From the NCBI GenBank assembly GCA_015657605.1, contig JACDQO010000355.1, positions 1 through 10,227 on the forward strand: a stretch of DNA of 10,227 bases. Reading direction: 5' to 3'. The position numbers and the translations under genes were made by a program. The stretch is from Limnohabitans sp. Lineage in GTDB: Bacteria; Pseudomonadota; Gammaproteobacteria; Burkholderiales; Burkholderiaceae_C. Positions 1 through 9,659 of this stretch are shown here, one piece after another (position 1 is the stretch's first letter; each line of letters starts with the position of its first letter). The notes under the pieces are model-generated. The model saw only the letters and a program-made list of their open reading frames with translations, was not told the origin of the DNA and made no database searches.

Positions 1-537
1 AACCGACATCCCGAGCTGGAAGATCTGAATCTGTATTTTTTGGGTGCGTATGGCCTGGGCTGGCTGGCACATGCGGTGCGCCATGCCAAATTTCAAGCGC
101 AAGCGATCGGCGTGGCTGGCATGTTGTTGCTGGGTGCGGTAGCCTGGTGGCTGGAGCCCCGGTGGCGCGTGGCCACGGCTTGGGGCGTGGCGATTTGCCT
201 GGCGTGTGCACCCCAAGCTTGGTGGATGGGCATGGGCCAAACCATGAGCCCTTGGCGGCAAGGCATGGGTTGGTTGTCGCGTGTGTCCTACAGCGTCTTT
301 GTGGTGCACTTCGTGGTCAGTCTGGTGGTCAATGCCGTGGTCACCCACGTCTGGCCCGCTGACCTGTGGGCCAACGCCATGGGCATGCTGGCTTCGCTGA
401 TCCTGTCCTTGCTGGCAGGCGCTTGGCTTTACGAAAAAGTCGAAAAGCCCGCGGCTACTGGACGGCGCTGGTGGGTTTGGAGCGAGGTGTTCATCGCCAG
501 CGCACTGCTGGCGATGTTGATCAATGGGACGCTTTGA
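1..537 (+). CDS. Acyltransferase 3 family membrane protein, C-terminal part
   Basis: The reading frame is open from the first base of the window, so the gene starts upstream and only the last 178 residues are visible. They are strongly hydrophobic, with about five probable membrane segments (roughly residues 31-48, 53-70, 88-110, 118-135 and 155-173 of the visible part). The segment SYSVFVVHFVV (residues 96-106), followed by two further helices and a closing YEKVEKP, resembles the end of acyltransferase-3 family proteins, integral membrane enzymes that move acyl groups onto sugars or other exported molecules. The catalytic N-terminal part lies outside the window, so neither substrate nor activity can be judged. 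The stop codon lies inside the end of the converging cphA gene (17 bp overlap), leaving no room for a separate terminator. I see no functional tie to cyanophycin beyond adjacency. A different polytopic membrane protein remains possible. Confidence 0.7.
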   Translation, partial: NRHPELEDLNLYFLGAYGLGWLAHAVRHAKFQAQAIGVAGMLLLGAVAWWLEPRWRVATAWGVAICLACAPQAWWMGMGQTMSPWRQGMGWLSRVSYSVFVVHFVVSLVVNAVVTHVWPADLWANAMGMLASLILSLLAGAWLYEKVEKPAATGRRWWVWSEVFIASALLAMLINGTL

Positions 538-3091
538 CTTTGGCCGTGATGTAGGCCAGGGCTTCTTCGACTTGGTCGATCAAGATCAAGCACAGGTCAC
601 CCGGTGACAAGCGAGACAAAGCCACATCGATCGCATTGAACTCACCTTGAATGTCCTGAATATGGGTGGTTCGGACAGCACCTTGCAAACCCTCGCGCAA
701 CAAACCGAGGACTTCGCCGTCTTCACGGCCCCGCTGACAGGCATCTTGGTAGAGCAACACTTCATCAAAGGCTTTGCCCAAGATGTGGGTTTGGTCCCGG
801 ATGTCTTGGTCGCGCCGGTCCCCAGCGCCACTGATGACCACCATGCGTTTGTGGGCGGGCATGTTCTCGACGGCTTGCACCAAGGCTTGGATGGCATCGG
901 GGTTGTGGCCGTAATCGGCGATCAGGGTGGCACCCCGGTAATCAAAGACATTGAAGCGTCCAGGCACGCCTTGGATGTCGCTGACAAAGCTGGACAAGCC
1001 TTCGGCAATGACCGACCAGGGCATGTCCACAGCCCATGCCGCGCCCACTGCGGCCAAGACGTTTTCCGTTTGGAAACCGATTTGGCCTTGCCGGGTCAGT
1101 GGCACTTGGCTCAAAGGGATGCGAAAGGTTTGTTGCCCCTTTTGGGCCACGATGTCGCCTTTGTCCAGATACACCACACGCTTGCCTTGGGCGCGGTGCG
1201 TGGCCAGCACGGGTTGGTTGGGATCCAGCGCGAAGTAGGTCACCTCTCCGGGGCAGTGTCGGCCCATGGCGGCGACGGCCGGATCGTTGGCATTGAGCAC
1301 GGCCATGCCTTCAGGATCCACGTTGAGCACGATCACGCGTTTGACAACCGTGAGGTCTTCCAGCGTGGTGATGTAGTTCAAACCCAGGTGGTCGCCCGTG
1401 CCCAGGTTGGTCACCACGGCCACTTGGCAGCGGTCAAAGGCCAAGCCTTCGCGCAGCAGGCCACCCCGTGCAGTTTCAAAAACCGCCACATCCATTTCGG
1501 GGTGCATGAGCACGTTGCGGGCGCTGCGGGGGCCACTGCAGTCACCCGAATCGGTTTGCCTGCCATTGACATAAACGCCATCGGTGTTGGTCATGCCCAC
1601 ACGCAGACCCTGACTGCGCATCAGGTGGGCGATCAAGCGAACAGTCGTCGTCTTGCCATTGGTGCCGGTCACGGCCACCACCGGGACGCGCCCAAGGTCA
1701 CCTGAGGCGTACATGTGTTCGATCACGGCCTTGCCCACGTCGCGGCCTTTGCCATACGACGGACTGATGTGCATGCGCAGACCCGGTGCCGCGTTGACCT
1801 CCACAATGCCGCCGTTTTGCTCTTCAAGGGGGCGTTGGATGGATTCGCACACCACATCCACGCCACAGATGTCCAAACCCACCATTTGTGCGGCTTCGAT
1901 GGCGCGGCTGGCCACTTCGGGGTGGACGTCATCGGTCACGTCGGTGGCGGTGCCACCGGTGGAGAGGTTGGCATTGTTGCGCAGCAAAACCCGGCGGCCC
2001 TTGACTGGGATGGATTCGGGTTGCAGGTCCTGTTCGTGCAAGCGACCGATGGCAATGTCATCGAAACGAATCTTTGTGAGTGAAGTGGCATGGCCATCGC
2101 CGCGGCGCGGATCGGCATTGACCAGGTCAACCAATTGCCGCACCGTGTGTTTGCCATCGCCCACCACCAAAGGGGGCTCACGGCGCGAGGCTGCCACCAG
2201 CTTGTTGCCCACCACCAACAGGCGGTAGTCATGACCTGGCAAGAATTTTTCGACCATCACCACGCCGTAGCGCAGGGCGGTGGCATAGGCTTTGTCAAAG
2301 GTCGTGCGGTCCGAGATGTTGACCGAGACCCCTTTGCCTTGGTTGCCATCTTGAGGTTTCACCACCACAGGCAAACCGACTTCTTGGGCGATCTGCCACG
2401 CTTGCTCTAAGCTGGTGGCCGGTTTGCCCAAAGGCACAGGCACACCTGCTGCGTGCAGCAAGCTCTTGGTCAGTGCCTTGTCTTGGGCGATGGATTCGGC
2501 GATGGCGCTGGTGGTGTCAACTTCGGCCGCTTGGATGCGGCGTTGCTTGGCGCCCCAGCCAAACTGCACCATGCTCCCATCGGTCAGGCGTCTGACGGGG
2601 ATACCCCGTGCCAATGCAGCGTCCACAATGGCCGCTGTAGAAGGCCCTAGGCGCACGTCTTCGTCGAGTTCATGCAAATGGGCAATCGACGCTTCGAGGT
2701 CAAAACCCATGCCCGAGATGGCGGCGTTGCAAAGTTTTTCCGCCAGTTCAAGGGCTTTGCGGCCCACTGTTTCTTCGGAATACTCCACCACGACTTGGTA
2801 GACGCCGGGCTCTTCGGTGGGTGTGGTCCGGCTGAAGGAGACGGGGCAACCGGCTTGTATCTGCAAACCCAAAGTGACCTTTTCCAGTGCATGGGCCAAG
2901 CTGACGGCCAGCCCAGGCCGAACAGCATCAAACGGGCCGACTTCGGGAAAAATTCGGCGCAGGTGTTGCTCGGTGGGGTGTTGTGGACTGAGGCCTTGTT
3001 CGTCTGCCGTGCAGGTGACGATGGCTTCGATGGCCGTGTGACGGCTCCACAAGTTGGGACCGCGCAAAGCGCGAATTCTGGACACTTCCAT
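521..3091 (-). CDS. cphA: Cyanophycin synthetase CphA
   Basis: Cytoplasmic enzyme that builds cyanophycin by alternately adding aspartate to the backbone and arginine to its side chains, using two ATP-dependent sites. The 856-residue product has the usual bacterial length. An N-terminal domain (about 1-200) opens with MEVSRIRALRGPNLW, typical of betaproteobacterial CphA. An ATP-grasp module follows (about 200-460), with VKPQDGNQGKGV (244-255), RNNANLSTGG (371-380) and the metal-binding EVNAAPG (431-437). The Mur-ligase module carries an intact P-loop GTNGKTTT (476-483), FETARGG (538-544) and ADYGHNP (725-731) of the C-terminal domain. The frame runs upstream to position 3337, but the ATG at 3091 matches the family start and has AGGA ten bases before it; the extra upstream stretch overlaps the cphA' end and looks non-coding. 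It lies 35 bp downstream of cphA', almost certainly in one operon. No frameshift is seen. Confidence 0.95.
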   Translation of the reverse strand: MEVSRIRALRGPNLWSRHTAIEAIVTCTADEQGLSPQHPTEQHLRRIFPEVGPFDAVRPGLAVSLAHALEKVTLGLQIQAGCPVSFSRTTPTEEPGVYQVVVEYSEETVGRKALELAEKLCNAAISGMGFDLEASIAHLHELDEDVRLGPSTAAIVDAALARGIPVRRLTDGSMVQFGWGAKQRRIQAAEVDTTSAIAESIAQDKALTKSLLHAAGVPVPLGKPATSLEQAWQIAQEVGLPVVVKPQDGNQGKGVSVNISDRTTFDKAYATALRYGVVMVEKFLPGHDYRLLVVGNKLVAASRREPPLVVGDGKHTVRQLVDLVNADPRRGDGHATSLTKIRFDDIAIGRLHEQDLQPESIPVKGRRVLLRNNANLSTGGTATDVTDDVHPEVASRAIEAAQMVGLDICGVDVVCESIQRPLEEQNGGIVEVNAAPGLRMHISPSYGKGRDVGKAVIEHMYASGDLGRVPVVAVTGTNGKTTTVRLIAHLMRSQGLRVGMTNTDGVYVNGRQTDSGDCSGPRSARNVLMHPEMDVAVFETARGGLLREGLAFDRCQVAVVTNLGTGDHLGLNYITTLEDLTVVKRVIVLNVDPEGMAVLNANDPAVAAMGRHCPGEVTYFALDPNQPVLATHRAQGKRVVYLDKGDIVAQKGQQTFRIPLSQVPLTRQGQIGFQTENVLAAVGAAWAVDMPWSVIAEGLSSFVSDIQGVPGRFNVFDYRGATLIADYGHNPDAIQALVQAVENMPAHKRMVVISGAGDRRDQDIRDQTHILGKAFDEVLLYQDACQRGREDGEVLGLLREGLQGAVRTTHIQDIQGEFNAIDVALSRLSPGDLCLILIDQVEEALAYITAKVKASH

Positions 3092-3126: not shown

Positions 3127-5297
3127 TCAGGCTGCCGGGATTTGGCCGTAACTTTTGACACCGGCGCGAATCAGGTCTGCATCCATGCCCATGGCCCAGG
3201 CCGCACAAGCGGCCACCAGCATGTCTTGGGTGCTGAGCAAGTTGTTTTTGAGCAAACGTGACACCCCGGGACGCTGAACGGACAACACCGACTGCTCGGC
3301 GACGCCTTCGGCCAAAATCAACTGGCCATCGCGCCAAAAGCCAACGCGTCCACCTTCTTTTTGGTGGGCCTGCAGCCGTTCTTGGTGTTCATCGTAGGCA
3401 AAGAGAATCACACCGCCGTCGCAAAATTCGGCGAGTTCGGCCACCGCCTCAACTTCGGCGTTCAAGACGGCATAGCCCGTGGGCAGCACCAAGTCGATTT
3501 GCGTGCGGATGTAGCTGGGCATTTTTTCGTCAGGCCCTGGGTACAAATCTTCCAAGGGTGCTGCTTTGGGCATTTGGGTGACGATGCCGACTTGGCAGCG
3601 GTCATAGGCCAAACCTTGGGTGAGCAGATGGCGGGCATCGCTTTCAAAGACGGCGGCTTCAACCGAACGGTTGATGAGCAAACGCTCGGCCTGGTCAAAG
3701 TCCATGGCGTTGCCTTTGAAGAGGCAACGTTGGTTGGCGTACAAGCCTTCAGCACAGGCCAGACCGGTGAACAGGCCTTGCAAATGCAAAAGCCAAGCAA
3801 TCAATTTGGCACTTTTGGTGGTGTCGCCATCGCCCATCAGGCCGACCACTGGAATCCGGCCCGTCTCATGGGGCGAGATCAGGTGTTCGGCAATCGCTTG
3901 GCCGACCAATCGGGGCTGACCCTCGGCAGGGTTCAGGTGCATCAACAGGCTGGGGCCTGCATTGACTTCAACCACCACGCCCTGAGTCCCCAAGGGTTGG
4001 CAAATGTCGGGGGTCACCACGTCCACGCCTGCGATGTCCAAACCCACCACGCGCGCAGCCAGAACCGCCTGAGCCGCCACATCGGGTGCACCACATCGGT
4101 GATGTCGGTGGTCATGTTGCCAGTGCGTTTGACCAGCACCGACTGACCCAGCGCGGGCACGCTGTCGATGGTCAAACCTTGGCGAGCCAGTTCCAGCACT
4201 TCTGGGCTGTTGTCTGCCAAGACCACCAATTCGAGGGGCAAGCTACCGACACTGCCGCGGCGGGGGTCTGAATTGATTTGGAGCTCGACCAATTCGCGCA
4301 CAGTGTGTTGGCCATCGCCGGTGACGCTGGCGCCTTCCCCGCGGCATGCGGCAATCATGCGGTCGCCCACCACCAACAAACGGTGCTCAGAGCCACGAAC
4401 AAAGCGCTCCACGATGACATCACGGCCCTGGGCCAAGGCGATGTCGTAAGCGGTTTCGATCTCGCTTTGTGTACTCAGGTCAAGCGACACCCCGCGTGCG
4501 CGGTTGCCATTGCTGGGTTTGACGCAAACAGGCAAACCGATCTCTTGTGCTGCGATCCAGGCGGCAGCTGGGCTGTCAACCACTTGACCTTCGGGAATGG
4601 GCACGCCGCACATGGCCAAGAGTTTTTTGGTCAGGTCTTTGTCTCTGGAGATGCCTTCGGCAATGGCGCTGGTCCGGTCGGTCTCGGCCGTCCAGATGCG
4701 GCGCTGCTTGACGCCATGGCCCAGCTGAACCAGGTTGCCCACATTCAGCCGAATGAAAGGCACGCGACGGGCGTAGGCCGCCTCCACAATGCTGGAGGTG
4801 CTGGGGCCGACGTGCAGAGCATCGACCGTCAGGGCCAACTGGGCCACGGCGCCAGGCACATCAAAGGGTGTGTCGTGGATGGCGGCCAAAATCAGCTCGC
4901 GCGAGAGTTCGAGCGACTTTCTGCCCACGGTTTCGTTGTCTGTGCGGATCACCACTTTGTACACGCCACGCGGACCGGCTTCGCGCGCTTTGCCAAAGGC
5001 CATGGGCATGCCTGCCAGGGTTTGCAATTCGAGGCTGACGTGCTCCAGAATGTGCCCAGCCCAGGTGCCTGTGTCCAGGCGTTGAAAAAATCCACCACGA
5101 ACACCCGGGGTGCAGTGGTGCTCGATCATCAGAGGCAACCAAGCTTTGAGCCGTTCATTGAAACCTGGCAGCAGGTTAGAGGGGTAATCTTCCAGCTCCC
5201 CGATGTCGATCAGGGCTTCCATCACCGAGCGGTAGGTCCAGATGTTGGGTCCGCGCAAATACGTCAAGCGCAGAAATTCGATATTTTTGGGACTCAT
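3127..5297 (-). CDS. cphA': CphA' (second cyanophycin synthetase-like protein), frameshifted in this sequence
   Basis: Divergent paralogue of the downstream CphA. The frame is open from the ATG at 5297 to a break near 4083, then continues in another frame from about 4080 to the stop at 3127. Restoring one base turns VHP-MW into VHP-DVAAQAV and gives 723 residues. Shared blocks with CphA include LRGPNIW, ETVGRKSLEL, VGPSTSSIVEAA, KQRRIWTAE and EVNAGPS. The ATP-grasp module (about 215-475) differs in its loop, GNRARGV where CphA has GNQGKGV, and lacks several residues of the RNNANLSTGG block. In the Mur module the P-loop is replaced by GDGDTTKS (489-496), with no lysine in the GKT position, and the protein ends before the ADYGHNP domain. 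It may act as a one-site synthetase, like CphA2 proteins, or as a partner of CphA; both are inferences. No clear Shine-Dalgarno site is seen. An in-frame TTG lies two codons upstream. First gene of the cph operon. Confidence 0.88.
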
Positions 5298-5471
5298 ATG
5301 CAAAAGGTGCGGCGATACAATGAACTGCCGATTGTGGCATTGGCCTTCACGTGCGCTGAAAAATCAGGATTCAAATTGAACATGGGCAATCTTGTGGAAG
5401 CAGTGGGCCAGATCAAGGTTTTCATTCTCGTTACGCACCCTCTGCGTGACGAGCACACCGCGGTTTTTGAG
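5298..5471. promoter_or_regulatory. Divergent intergenic region between cphA' and the ABC transporter gene
   Basis: This 174 bp stretch separates the starts of two diverging transcription units and so should hold promoters for both. I cannot place a confident -35/-10 pair on either strand. A TACAAT at 5316-5321 could be a plus-strand -10 box, but the nearest TTGGGA (5287-5292) is 23 bp away, too far. A small odd palindrome, TTCAAATTGAA (5370-5380), could be an operator half-site arrangement or chance. There is no convincing hairpin terminator. The plus-strand ABC frame stays open through the region, with in-frame ATGs at 5298 and 5382, so part of it could be coding if the true start lies further upstream. 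Confidence 0.35.
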
Positions 5472-7766
5472 ATGATTCCAACACCTGCTTCAGTTTTGCC
5501 GCTTCCGGGGATTCCGGAGGCTTGGCAAGCAGAAGTTCACGCCATTCTTCAACCCCAAGAAAACGTCTCAGCCGGGCTGGAGGTTGACCTGGATGGGAAA
5601 TTGTTTTTCGCCAAAAGCCTGGTGATTTTGACCGATCAAAGGGTCTTGTTTGGCTCGGGCGTGCAAAAAACTTGGCAAAGCTGGCCACTGCAGCCAGATT
5701 TGAGCCTCAAGCTGAGCGATCACGCTGGAGTGGGTACTTTGGCATTGGTTTCGTCAACCGAGCAGCTGGCCGTGTGGCGTTTTACCTTGGGCTTGCAATC
5801 GGCTGCGGCCCGCTGGGTTGCCCAGTTTGAAAAACAGCAAGCCCAGCTTTCGGGCAACGGCACACCGTTGCAGCAAAGTTTGTCGGTTGCCGTGTGCCCT
5901 GTGTGCCAAGCGGTCATGCGAGAGGACGATGACGAGTGCCCTAGCTGTGGTCGCGAAGACCTTGCACCCCCATCGACCTGGACGCTGCTCAAACTCTGGC
6001 GTTTTGCCAAGCCCTACAAAAAGTCTTTGTTCGCGGGATTTGTCGCTGACCTTGGCCTCCACCGCAGCCACCTTGGTGCCCCCTTACCTGACCATGCCCC
6101 TGATGGACGAGGTATTGATTCCCTACCAAAACGGTGTGGCCATCGACTCAGGTCTCGTGTCACTTTACTTGTTGGGTCTGTTCGGCGCGGCTTTATTGGC
6201 CTGGGGCTTGGGTTGGGCCAAGACCTATATTTTGGCTTTGGTGTCCGAGCGCATTGGGGCTGATCTGCGCACGACCACCTACGACCATTTGTTGAATTTG
6301 TCTTTGGAGTATTTTGGGGATCGCCGCACCGGCGACTTGATTGCCCGCATCGGCAATGAAACAGACCGTATCAATGTGTTTTTGTCGCTGCATCTGCTCG
6401 ATTTTGCGACCGATGTGCTGATGATTTTGATGACCGCGATCATCCTGTTCACCATCAACCCGACGCTGGCATTGGTGACCCTGCTGCCCCTGCCGTTCAT
6501 CGCTTGGCTGATCCACTTGGTGCGTGAACGCTTGCGCACAGGATTTGAAAAAATTGACCGCGTCTGGGCCGAAGTCACCAATGTGTTGGCCGACACCATC
6601 CCCGGCATCCGGGTGGTCAAGGCCTTTGCACAAGAAGACCGCGAGTCCAAGCGGTTCAAAGATTCAAACCAGCACAACCTGATGGTGAATGACCGCTTGA
6701 ACCGTGTGTGGGCCTTGTTTTCACCTACCGTCACCCTCATGACCGAGGTGGGCTTGTTGGTGGTGTGGGGCTTTGGCATTTGGTTGGTGTCGAAAGACCA
6801 AATCACCGTGGGCGTGTTGACGGCTTTTCTGGCCTACATCGGCCGCTTTTATGGCCGTTTGGACACCATGAGCCGCATCGTCTCGCACACGCAAAAAGCA
6901 GCTTCGGGGGCCAAGCGAATTTTTGACATCTTGGACCATGTTTCCAGCGTGCCCGAGCCCGTTCGGCCAGTCGCTTTGCCAGAGCGCGTGCAGGGCCGCA
7001 TCACGGTACGCGATGCCGGCTTTCGCTATGGCAACCGGGCCGTGATCCGGCAGTTGAACCTGGACATTTTGCCTGGCCAGATGATTGGTCTGGTGGGCCA
7101 CAGTGGCTCTGGCAAAAGCACGCTGGTCAACCTGATTTGTCGCTTTTACGATGTGACCGATGGGTCGATTGAATTGGATGGTACCGACATTCGGCAATTG
7201 AAAATCGCCGACTACCGCAGCCAAATTGGCTTGGTTTTGCAAGAGCCTTTTCTCTTTTTCGGGACCATCGCGGATAACATTGCGTATGGCAAACCAGGCG
7301 CCACCCGTGAAGACATCGTGGCGGCTGCGCGGGCGGCACACGCCCATGAGTTCATCATGCGCATGCCGCAAGCCTATGACTCCTTGGTGGGCGAGCGGGG
7401 GCAAGGTCTGTCGGGTGGCGAGCGCCAGCGCATCTCGATCGCCCGCGCTTTGTTGATCACCCGCGCATTTTGATTTTGGACGAGGCCACTTCGGCGGTCG
7501 ACACCGAGACAGAAAAAGAAATCCAACGGGCCTTGGACAATTTGGTCCGGGGCCGCACCACGATTGCGATTGCGCACAGGTTGTCGACCCTGCGCAAAGC
7601 CGACCGTTTGGTGGTGATGGACAAAGGTGTCGTCGTGGAAGAGGGCTCGCACGATGAGTTGATCGCTGCAGAGGGCGCTTATTGGCGCTTGTACGAAGCG
7701 CAGCAGCGCCAAGCGGAGGCCGAGACGGTCTTGGGCGGTGGCCTCGAACAGAAGGTGCTCGCATGA
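5472..7766 (+). CDS. ABC exporter with N-terminal PH-like and zinc-ribbon extension (cyanophycin-associated family), two frameshifts
   Basis: Fused permease-ATPase half-transporter, about 764 residues after repair. Residues 1-120 form a soluble domain ([10 protein letters not shown] at 53-62, PH-like in flavour). A four-cysteine zinc ribbon follows (CPVC 142-145, CPSC 156-159). A type I exporter membrane domain with about six helices then spans roughly 175-480. The ATPase has Walker [10 protein letters not shown] (about 541-549), signature LSGGE (about 645), Walker B ILILDEA and the H-loop IAHRLST. The frame changes near 6043 (one extra base, or two missing) and near 7459 (one base missing; ITRAF should read [11 protein letters not shown]), and the two cancel. 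The start is uncertain: 5472 fits where recognisable protein begins, its ribosome site is weak, and in-frame ATGs exist at 5382 and 5298. The stop overlaps the DUF1854 start. I recall this family as recurring beside cyanophycin genes; its substrate is unknown. It should sit in the inner membrane, probably as a homodimer. Confidence 0.88.
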
Positions 7767-8227
7767 ACACATTTGATTTGCAACGCGATGCTTTTGGCCA
7801 ATGGGTGTTACACATGCCCGACGGTGCCCAGCACGCGCCCGTCACGGCCTTGCGGGCTTATCCCGTCACCTCGCCCCACGGGGGCGTGGCGCTGATGGAC
7901 TCGGAAGGGCACGAACTGATCTGGGTGGATGCCCTGAGTGATCTGCCCCCCGACTTGCAATCGCGTGTGCTGCAAGCCTTGTCCGAGCGGGAATTTTTGC
8001 CCGTCATCGACCGGCTGGAAAGTGTCAGCAGTTTTGCCACCCCCAGCACCTGGACGGTCCAAACCGATCGCGGCACGGCCCGTTTTTTACTCAAAGGCGA
8101 GGAAGACATTCGCCGCCTGACGGGCACGGTGCTGCTGATCAACGACGCCGATGGTGTGCAGTACATGATCCGAGATTTGGCGGCCATGGACAAACACTCG
8201 CGCAAACTGCTGGACCGTTTTCTCTGA
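7763..8227 (+). CDS. DUF1854 family protein (cyanophycin-associated)
   Basis: Small soluble protein of 154 residues with no signal peptide or membrane segment. The second half carries the features I associate with DUF1854: [12 protein letters not shown] (residues 107-118), [16 protein letters not shown] and a closing [12 protein letters not shown]. The open frame reaches back to 7682, but the ATG at 7763 overlaps the ABC transporter stop as ATGA, has AAGG seven bases upstream, and begins the conserved protein, so that start is well supported. The overlap implies translational coupling and roughly matched production, which suggests it is an accessory or regulatory partner of the transporter. 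I recall the pair as recurring next to cphA genes; biochemical function is unknown. It is intact, unlike its neighbour. The stop is 6 bp from the stop of the converging MBL gene. Confidence 0.88.
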
Positions 8228-8233
8228 GTCGCC

Positions 8234-9611
8234 TTAAAGGATGAACTTCTCATAGCGGCCAGACCGAGCCTTGCTCGGGCACCAGGCGCGCCATTTGACC
8301 TCATGCTCGATGCGCTGGCGCAGCATGTCGGACGCTTCGCGCTCACCGTGCACCACATACACCTGCCCGGGTGCGCTGGGCATTTTGTGCAGCCAACTCA
8401 GCAGCTGGTTGGCGTCGGCATGCGCCGAGGCCGACTCGATTTGTGCTACTTCGGCCCTGACCGTCACATCTTGTGCATGGATGCGGATGGTGCTGCGGCC
8501 ACTGGCCAAGGCCGCCCCGCGTGTACCTGGGGCCTGATAACCCGTCAGGATGATCATGTTGCGGTGGTCGCCCGCGTATTGCGCCAAGTGGTGCAAGACG
8601 CGCCCCCCAGTGGCCATGCCACTGGCCGCCAGAATCACCATGGGGCCGTGCCGGTGCACCAGTGATTTGGACTGCTCCGGTGTTTCCAGCATGGTGGCCA
8701 CATGGTCCATTTGGCGCACTTCTTGCACATTCAGGCGGTGCTCGCCCGGGTGGCGCTCAAACAAGGCCGTGGTGTGGATCGCCATGGGGCTGTCCAGAAA
8801 AATCGGCAAACCCTTGGGAATTTCTCCTGCGGCCTTGAGCTGCGCAATGGTGTGCAGCACAGCCTGCGCTCGCCCCACGGCAAACACCGGCACCACGGCC
8901 ACGCCGCCGCGTGCAGCCAGTTTTTTCAGCAGTACCCCGAGTTCTTCGAACAGCTTTTCATGGGGGTGCTGGCGGTCACCATAGGTGGATTCGATCAGCA
9001 CCGTGTCGGCCTGTGGCGGCGGCTCCGGCGGGTTCATCAACGGGTCATCAGGGCGACCCAATCGCCAGAAAACAAAATGCGCCGACGCCCACATCGAGCA
9101 GCAAACTGGCCGCACCCAGGATGTGCCCGGCAGGCTGAAAGCGGCACTTCCAGCCGCGAATGGGCTCGAACCACTGGCCCTGGTGCTCGGCGTGCAATTG
9201 TTTCAGGCAGTGGATGGCCTCTTGCTTGGTGTACAGCGGCAGGGCCGGGGCGTGTTTGGAAAAAGCGTGGCGGTTGGCAAAAAAAGCGTCTTCTTCTTGA
9301 ATGTGCCCGCTGTCGGGCAGCAGAATGCTGGCCAGATCGCATGTTGCTGCAGTGGCATGCACCCGCCCCCGAAATCCGTTTTTCACCAGCAAAGGCAAAT
9401 AGCCGCTGTGGTCCAGGTGCGCGTGGGTCAACACCACCGCATCGATGTGCGCCGGGTTGGCGGGCAGGGGACTCCAGTTGCGCAGGCGCAGTTGTTTGTA
9501 GCCCTGAAACAGCCCGCAATCGACCAGCAGCCGTTTTTGGTTGTGCTCGATCAGGTACTTGGAACCGGTGACGGTGTCGGCTCCGCCAAGGAAGGTGATG
9601 GTGGCGCTCAT
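8234..9611 (-). CDS. MBL-fold beta-CASP RNA-processing type metallo-hydrolase, two frameshifts
   Basis: Predicted zinc-dependent RNase or RNA-processing enzyme of the CPSF73-like beta-CASP group, cytoplasmic, 459 residues after repair. The N-terminal part shows FLGGADTVTGS (7-17), the aspartate in LVDCGLF (about 31), zinc motif HAHLDH (63-68) and GHILGAASLLLDVG (162-175). The later part shows ESTYGDR, ASGMATGG, GYQAPGTRG, SAHAD and VVHGE, typical of the beta-CASP and RNA-specificity regions. Two single-base losses near 9086 and 9060 break the frame; between them a third frame reads RILFSGD, which contains the expected metal-binding aspartate, and restoring one base at each site joins everything as SGDLGRPDD. 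ATG 9611 is chosen because the conserved fold begins there; there is no visible Shine-Dalgarno site, and an in-frame TTG exists at 9659. An FNR-like box sits upstream. A role in general RNA decay or in low-oxygen physiology is possible; the RNA target is unknown. Confidence 0.87.
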
Positions 9612-9645
9612 GCGCCCATGTTCACGGCATTGGCTGGCTCGGGGT

Positions 9646-9659
9646 TTGACTTGGGTCAA
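9646..9659. promoter_or_regulatory. Putative FNR/Anr-type binding site upstream of the MBL gene
   Basis: TTGAC-TTGG-GTCAA is a perfect 5-4-5 palindrome close to the FNR/Anr/CRP-superfamily consensus TTGAT-N4-ATCAA. Its centre (9652.5) lies 41.5 bases upstream of the chosen MBL start codon at 9611. FNR-type activators bind near -41.5 at class II promoters, so transcription could begin at or next to the ATG, giving a leaderless message. That would agree with the missing ribosome-binding site and with a weak GAACAT -10-like hexamer at 9618-9623. This is inference from pattern and spacing; the palindrome could be coincidental. Confidence 0.5.

Follow-up and report, generated by a model that had tools for sequence, protein, structure and literature searches.

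An ABC exporter-DUF1854 pair accompanies two complementary cyanophycin synthetases at loci that mostly lack cyanophycinase

The window analysed here is a stretch of 10,227 nucleotides from a freshwater bacterium, Limnohabitans sp. (contig JACDQO010000355.1 of assembly GCA_015657605.1), in which an ABC exporter gene and a gene for a DUF1854 protein are transcribed away from two cyanophycin synthetase genes. cphA (521..3091, minus strand) encodes a full-length cyanophycin synthetase, the start of which was set by match to the orthologue in the related locus L002, and scores 970.5 bits against TIGR02068 (cut-off 850). cphA' (3127..5297, minus strand) encodes a shortened paralogue, as judged from its translation, its family matches and the motifs of its orthologues. 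The exporter gene (5472..7766, plus strand) encodes a half-transporter and is followed by the DUF1854 gene (7763..8227, plus strand; 154 aa), whose ATG at 7763 overlaps the exporter stop codon at 7764-7766, with 4 bp common to both genes. Between the divergent starts of the exporter (5472) and cphA' (5297) lie 174 bp (5298..5471), presumed to be a divergent promoter region. These coordinates agree with the divergent layout, the translational overlap and the 174-bp spacer of the original prediction. The exporter has no single open frame in this assembly; the gene is read as three pieces, interrupted by single-base frame breaks at about 6.04 kb and about 7.46 kb.

In comparison to close relatives, single-base breaks are also present in cphA' (near 4.1 kb), in a beta-CASP gene beyond the pair and in dnaJ, close to the 3' edge of the window. 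The exporter frame is unbroken in L002-L004, three relatives at 88.6-91.2% DNA identity. Since at least four neighbouring genes are broken, the relatives are intact and the source genome is fragmentary (520 contigs, of which the window is number 45; 62% complete), the breaks point to sequence error in this assembly rather than to a dead exporter gene.

The intact exporter is 764 aa long in the L002 orthologue. The three pieces in the window score 181.2, 977 and 161.3 bits against NF052233 (cut-off 880), the middle piece alone passing. An ABC_membrane domain and an ATPase with Walker A (at 7096), Q-loop, signature LSGGE (at 7408), Walker B and H-loop identify it as an ABCB-type exporter, and 54 orthologues with 59-91% identity to L002 show conservation of the ATPase motifs and of the transmembrane domain. 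It has the same membrane and ATPase domains and the same fold as TM287/288, MsbA, Sav1866, TAP and HlyB, but differs from these in its DUF1854 partner and in a predicted N-terminal head of its own. The first part of this head (5517..5853, coordinates transferred from the AlphaFold model of L002) is modelled with seven strands in residues 32 to 105 and a helix at 106-127, an order of elements which fits a PH-like barrel. Pfam and PDB sequence searches with this part gave no match, nor was there a confident fold match for the head in the library, and the structure search of the exporter was filled by ABC domains. A zinc-ribbon-like CxxC...CxxC segment (5886..5957) lies between the PH-like and membrane domains. 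Its cysteines C142, C145, C156 and C159 are each kept in at least 90% of the 54 orthologues, although only sub-threshold zinc-ribbon matches were obtained. The segment is absent from L084, L089 and four exporter-DUF1854 fusion proteins (P0124, P0125, P0127 and P0128). No C39 peptidase was found in the N-terminal piece, the 11 Pfam families that matched it being all sub-cut-off and none of them C39.

The DUF1854 frame is intact and scores 150.5 bits against PF08909 (cut-off 26.8) and 212.8 bits against NF052234 (cut-off 150). Both window proteins therefore belong by score to the families NF052233 (CphA_assoc_ABC) and NF052234 (CphA_assoc_prot), both labelled 'cyanophycin metabolism-associated', names which record association only and no mechanism or substrate. 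An alignment of 71 DUF1854 sequences has 13 invariant columns, none of them histidine or cysteine, with no recognisable catalytic set, and the predicted fold gave no confident library match of any kind, to PH-like folds or to others.

Pairing of the exporter with DUF1854 is well supported. From 116 loci found to hold a relative of DUF1854, the best 80 were taken, including 36 (L002-L037) that resemble Limnohabitans with an identity of at least 70%; strains of Limnohabitans, Massilia and Thiobacillus are among the carriers. In 79 of the 80, the exporter gene immediately precedes DUF1854, and the remaining locus has a contig edge at its start. Over 103 loci, with start codons chosen by script, DUF1854 overlaps the exporter end in 63, begins within 60 bp of it in 38 and lies farther away in 2. 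A fusion search, in which the 7,997 candidates with the most words in common were scored, found exporter and DUF1854 as one protein in all 62 long matches, and all six that carry organism names are from Myxococcota. Two candidates (P0121 and P0122) resemble assembly or frame artefacts and were not counted as fusion evidence; long DUF1854 frames in seven Burkholderiales loci were likewise rejected as fusions, as they extend backwards across the exporter gene, out of its reading frame.

The pair is also tied to cyanophycin genes. cphA and/or cphA' lie within the fetched flank in 71 of the 80 loci, and whole-genome searches for the remaining nine and L060 found CphA over the cut-off in nine out of ten; the tenth genome (G253) has a 636-bit cphA'-type match together with a short fragment of another copy. 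Exporter and cphA' are divergent in 71 of the 77 loci with both in view and run in the same direction in 6. Judged from these gene orders, the arrangement in the window is far beyond chance.

Co-occurrence was analysed in a main sample of 250 Burkholderiales genomes and a phylum sample of 299, with many genomes in common. In the main sample DUF1854 is present in 88 genomes, CphA over the cut-off in 93 and both in 86, and in the two DUF1854-only genomes cphA' and part of cphA adjoin the pair (L096 and L097). The 18 phylum-sample genomes with DUF1854 are all among the 22 with CphA; outside Burkholderiales DUF1854 was found only in G372, which is 8% contaminated so that the contig may be foreign, and G372 is the only one of 48 genomes of its class with the module. 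The pair and cphA are both kept even where they are distant, as in G169 (2.3 Mb), G137 (0.78 Mb), G190 (0.35 Mb) and two Nitrosomonas genomes, and hence the association is more than shared neighbourhood. The shared physiological role proposed in the original prediction is strongly supported by this co-occurrence. Within the Pseudomonadota sampled the pair is not common in genomes without cyanophycin genes. One control genome from outside this phylum, that of the archaeon Sulfolobus acidocaldarius, does hold DUF1854.

Cyanophycinase shows the opposite distribution. TIGR02069 matches over the cut-off in 19 of the 250 Burkholderiales genomes, ten of them strongly (233-265 bits), and all 7 genomes with CphA but without DUF1854 fall in these ten. 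G212 has a strong cyanophycinase, no DUF1854 and a CphA match under the cut-off. Only 2 of the 88 DUF1854 genomes (G055 and G249) have a strong cyanophycinase, located at a second cphA locus where the stretch fetched holds neither exporter nor DUF1854. These two genomes (L115 and L116) thus carry both kinds of system, and the cyanophycinase-type locus holds two further full-length cphA genes. In the phylum sample, four CphA genomes without DUF1854 each have cyanophycinase at most 300 bp from cphA. Ten fetched cyanophycinase-linked cphA loci are without the exporter-DUF1854 pair, and no cyanophycinase was found in the exporter-type genomes G372, G521 and G511, in twelve further ones (G010, G029 and G250-G259) or in the window; TIGR02069 also gave no match in the source genome (G000), at its 62% completeness. 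The strongest statement is that each cphA locus examined comes with either a strong cyanophycinase or the exporter-DUF1854 pair.

In a phylogeny computed from 705 columns for 62 sequences of CphA and CphA', the 12 cyanophycinase-linked copies form one clade with support 1.0. The other 50, from exporter-type systems, stand apart, with a sister node of 0.18 after midpoint rooting which may be an artefact of re-rooting. On this tree the split between cyanophycinase and the pair goes back to an old division. A homologous CphA synthetase is present both here and in the classical cphA-cphB operon, but the window system has no cyanophycinase, two complementary CphA paralogues and the exporter with DUF1854. 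Since cyanophycinase is mostly absent from such systems, the usual logic of storage and recovery need not apply to them, which is the weak point of the earlier argument that cyanophycin, as an intracellular polymer, needs no exporter.

The two paralogues divide their motifs. The N domain of CphA1 carries a zinc-peptidase motif, Cx19HxxEH, which makes primers, as described in PMC9262961. The window CphA is without this motif and keeps the Mur-domain P-loop GTNGKTT; CphA' keeps the motif, its P-loop is degenerate and its C-terminal lobe is absent. In 75 loci with both proteins, the peptidase motif is absent in all 75 CphA and present in all 75 CphA', while the P-loop is found in every one of the 75 CphA (73 matched the pattern, and the other two were read as GNNGKT) and is missing from 70 CphA'. 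The C-terminal lobe is missing too from most CphA'. The five CphA' that keep the P-loop are longer (876-884 aa; L048, L050, L053 and L057 from Pandoraea, and L086) and perhaps represent a state preceding the shortening of CphA'. In G372 a single CphA was found, with both motifs. The N-domain motif is also absent in 10 of 12 cyanophycinase-linked CphA, so that its loss alone is no mark of the exporter type; the distinctive trait is rather the partner CphA' that keeps it. These patterns suggest a division of labour after duplication. Cyanobacterial CphA2, the beta-Asp-Arg polymerase, is related to CphA and has just one active site for synthesis according to PMC10206079, and CphA' may resemble it, its Mur-type site being mostly lost. 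However, CphA2 is described as being without the N-domain motif in PMC9262961, whereas CphA' has it at every locus compared.

Near the cphA' start, the core ATACAATGA reaches a conservation of at least 80% across an alignment of 35 Limnohabitans-type regions, window included, and is possibly a promoter or operator. Spacer regions of far relatives gave no useful alignment. A crude scan, using sigma-54, NtrC-like and ArgR-like patterns, found a shared regulator site in 0 of 67 intergenic regions, which does not exclude a regulator; the shared control of the two transcription units that had been proposed thus gained no support.

A survey of 47 flanks found no gene family outside the four core genes recurring in more than 6 loci. 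In some of the genera, genes resembling polar amino-acid uptake ABC systems were read near the module, in L065, L066, L072, L074, L080 and L099 (ATPase in 6 and permease in 5 of the 47 loci), and a link to arginine or aspartate supply is possible. A tblastn search of 72,556 plasmid records at E 0.001 gave no DUF1854 match, and with no recurrent flank family either, the module was rejected as mobile or plasmid-borne cargo. Downstream of the pair lies the beta-CASP metallo-beta-lactamase ribonuclease-like gene (8234-9659, minus strand, two frames). Its larger piece scores 201 bits against cas14_MBL_CASP and 152 bits against aCPSF1, both far under the NCBIfam cut-offs, and its product is assigned to the beta-CASP family and nothing narrower.

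Association of the pair with cyanophycin was already known from the NCBIfam names and from PMC10687191 (2023), which describes an activated-sludge 'Group 1' cphA cluster with two cphA copies, an ATP-binding ABC transporter and no cphB. The available part of that account makes no mention of DUF1854, fusions, a split of active sites or an exclusion rule, and it describes flanking insertion sequences, whereas the 47 flanks surveyed here show no family recurring in more than 6. Missing cyanophycinase is remarked on in PMC5178258 and PMC5670224. As far as our literature search reached, DUF1854 was not found named, alone or alongside an ABC transporter, no experimental test of the exporter-DUF1854 module was recognised, and nothing turned up on the exclusion rule, the fusions or the motif split, which is no proof of their being unpublished. 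In R. eutropha H16, cyanophycin reportedly went undetected in work by Adames et al. in 2013.

We tentatively propose, at somewhat less than even probability, that the pair provides transport for a second kind of cyanophycin system, one without cyanophycinase, in which DUF1854 is a subunit of the exporter and a cyanophycin-derived peptide is moved out of the cytoplasm. CphA would synthesise the chain, and CphA', with its zinc-peptidase site kept and its Mur-type site mostly lost, would trim chains or make primers. The exporter would act as an ATP-driven homodimeric pump with a cytoplasmic PH-like, usually zinc-ribbon, head, and DUF1854 would bind it as a dedicated cytoplasmic partner. The peptide, an oligomer or a chain end, would be carried to the periplasm, to serve a purpose outside the cytoplasm or be broken down by general peptidases. 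That an exporter takes the place of a depolymerase is suggestive, though no proof, of a product which passes out of the cell interior through the membrane. If the strain carries the module, indirect support for export may come from Variovorax paradoxus EPS, for which Table 1 of PMC7494200 lists a cyanophycin synthetase with a 27-fold increase that is unique to biofilm.

Several points weigh against this proposal. As the original prediction held, the substrate cannot be read from the sequence, and both the substrate and the direction of transport are what we infer. Among curated families, those of lipid A, peptide and drug exporters come closest, and exporters of the ABCB type handle a wide range of substrates. 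Confidence in the exporter model is middling, and the rmsd of its fold matches is large. Without a recurrent flank family there is no dedicated outer-membrane channel or periplasmic hydrolase to back full secretion. Six of the 88 DUF1854 genomes have a cyanophycinase-family protein over the cut-off, in four of them (136-172 bits) away from cphA, and in three fusions the DUF1854 portion scores slightly below the 150 bits required by NF052234 (141.6, 130.4 and 147.9). The Sulfolobus acidocaldarius control genome has DUF1854 and no CphA match at E 1e-150. Finally, the split runs along a single deep division in the CphA tree, so genomes are not independent samples and a Fisher p-value overstates the association.

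It is unlikely, though conceivable, that the pair instead replaces cyanophycinase, with DUF1854, or CphA' and the exporter, degrading the polymer in an otherwise ordinary store. Pair and strong cyanophycinase do alternate at each cphA locus examined, CphA' holds the only remaining N-domain peptidase motif, and cyanophycinase isozymes yet to be found are proposed in PMC10206079. The absence of a recognisable catalytic set in DUF1854, and of a confident match for its predicted fold, speaks against such an enzyme.

Two other roles for the pair appear improbable to a similar degree. An overflow valve exporting arginine, beta-Asp-Arg dipeptide or other amino acids from cyanophycin nitrogen would fit the gene linkage and the exporter type, and is consistent with the uptake-like gene pair in 5-6 of 47 flanks. 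However, little dipeptide would form without cyanophycinase, and amino-acid export in bacteria relies mostly on other families. In favour of the valve, IadA/IaaA are reported for 70.9% of beta-proteobacterial cphA1 genomes in PMC10206079. The other role is that of a lipid flippase or membrane-remodelling pump, by which cyanophycin granules or CphA would be coated or held in place at the membrane. The general models that fit the exporter best include those of the MsbA type, but the intact distant orthologue of L110 (479.5 bits), like the largest piece in the window (319.5), stays under the MsbA cut-off of 602, and L110 is also under the curated HlyB and TAP cut-offs. PH-like folds often bind lipid or protein, which would suit a flippase, but this assignment is a predicted topology only, and the ten cyanophycinase-linked cphA loci manage without the pair. 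Very unlikely is a regulator in which the exporter-like ATPase with its PH-like head and DUF1854 would sense polymer, arginine or energy state and act on CphA/CphA' with no true transport taking place, since the ATPase motifs and transmembrane domain are conserved across the orthologues as expected of a working pump, even though two accessory cytoplasmic modules and the tight pairing with the synthetases would suit it.

Recognisable cyanophycinase is reported in only 2.8% of 903 beta-proteobacterial cphA1 genomes in PMC10206079 (2023), which calls this unanticipated and leaves the reason open. A candidate answer is that the cphA genomes without cyanophycinase have a different kit, made up of CphA', the exporter and DUF1854. 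In its widest form, which we consider doubtful, there would be two cyanophycin lineages, one of storage with recovery by cyanophycinase and the other with the CphA/CphA' split and ABC-DUF1854 export, its peptide acting outside the cytoplasm, for example in the periplasm or the biofilm matrix; that the export lineage would account for most of the cphA-bearing beta-proteobacteria sampled is held with the same reserve. The split calls into question the assumption that every cphA gene stands for an intracellular nitrogen store.
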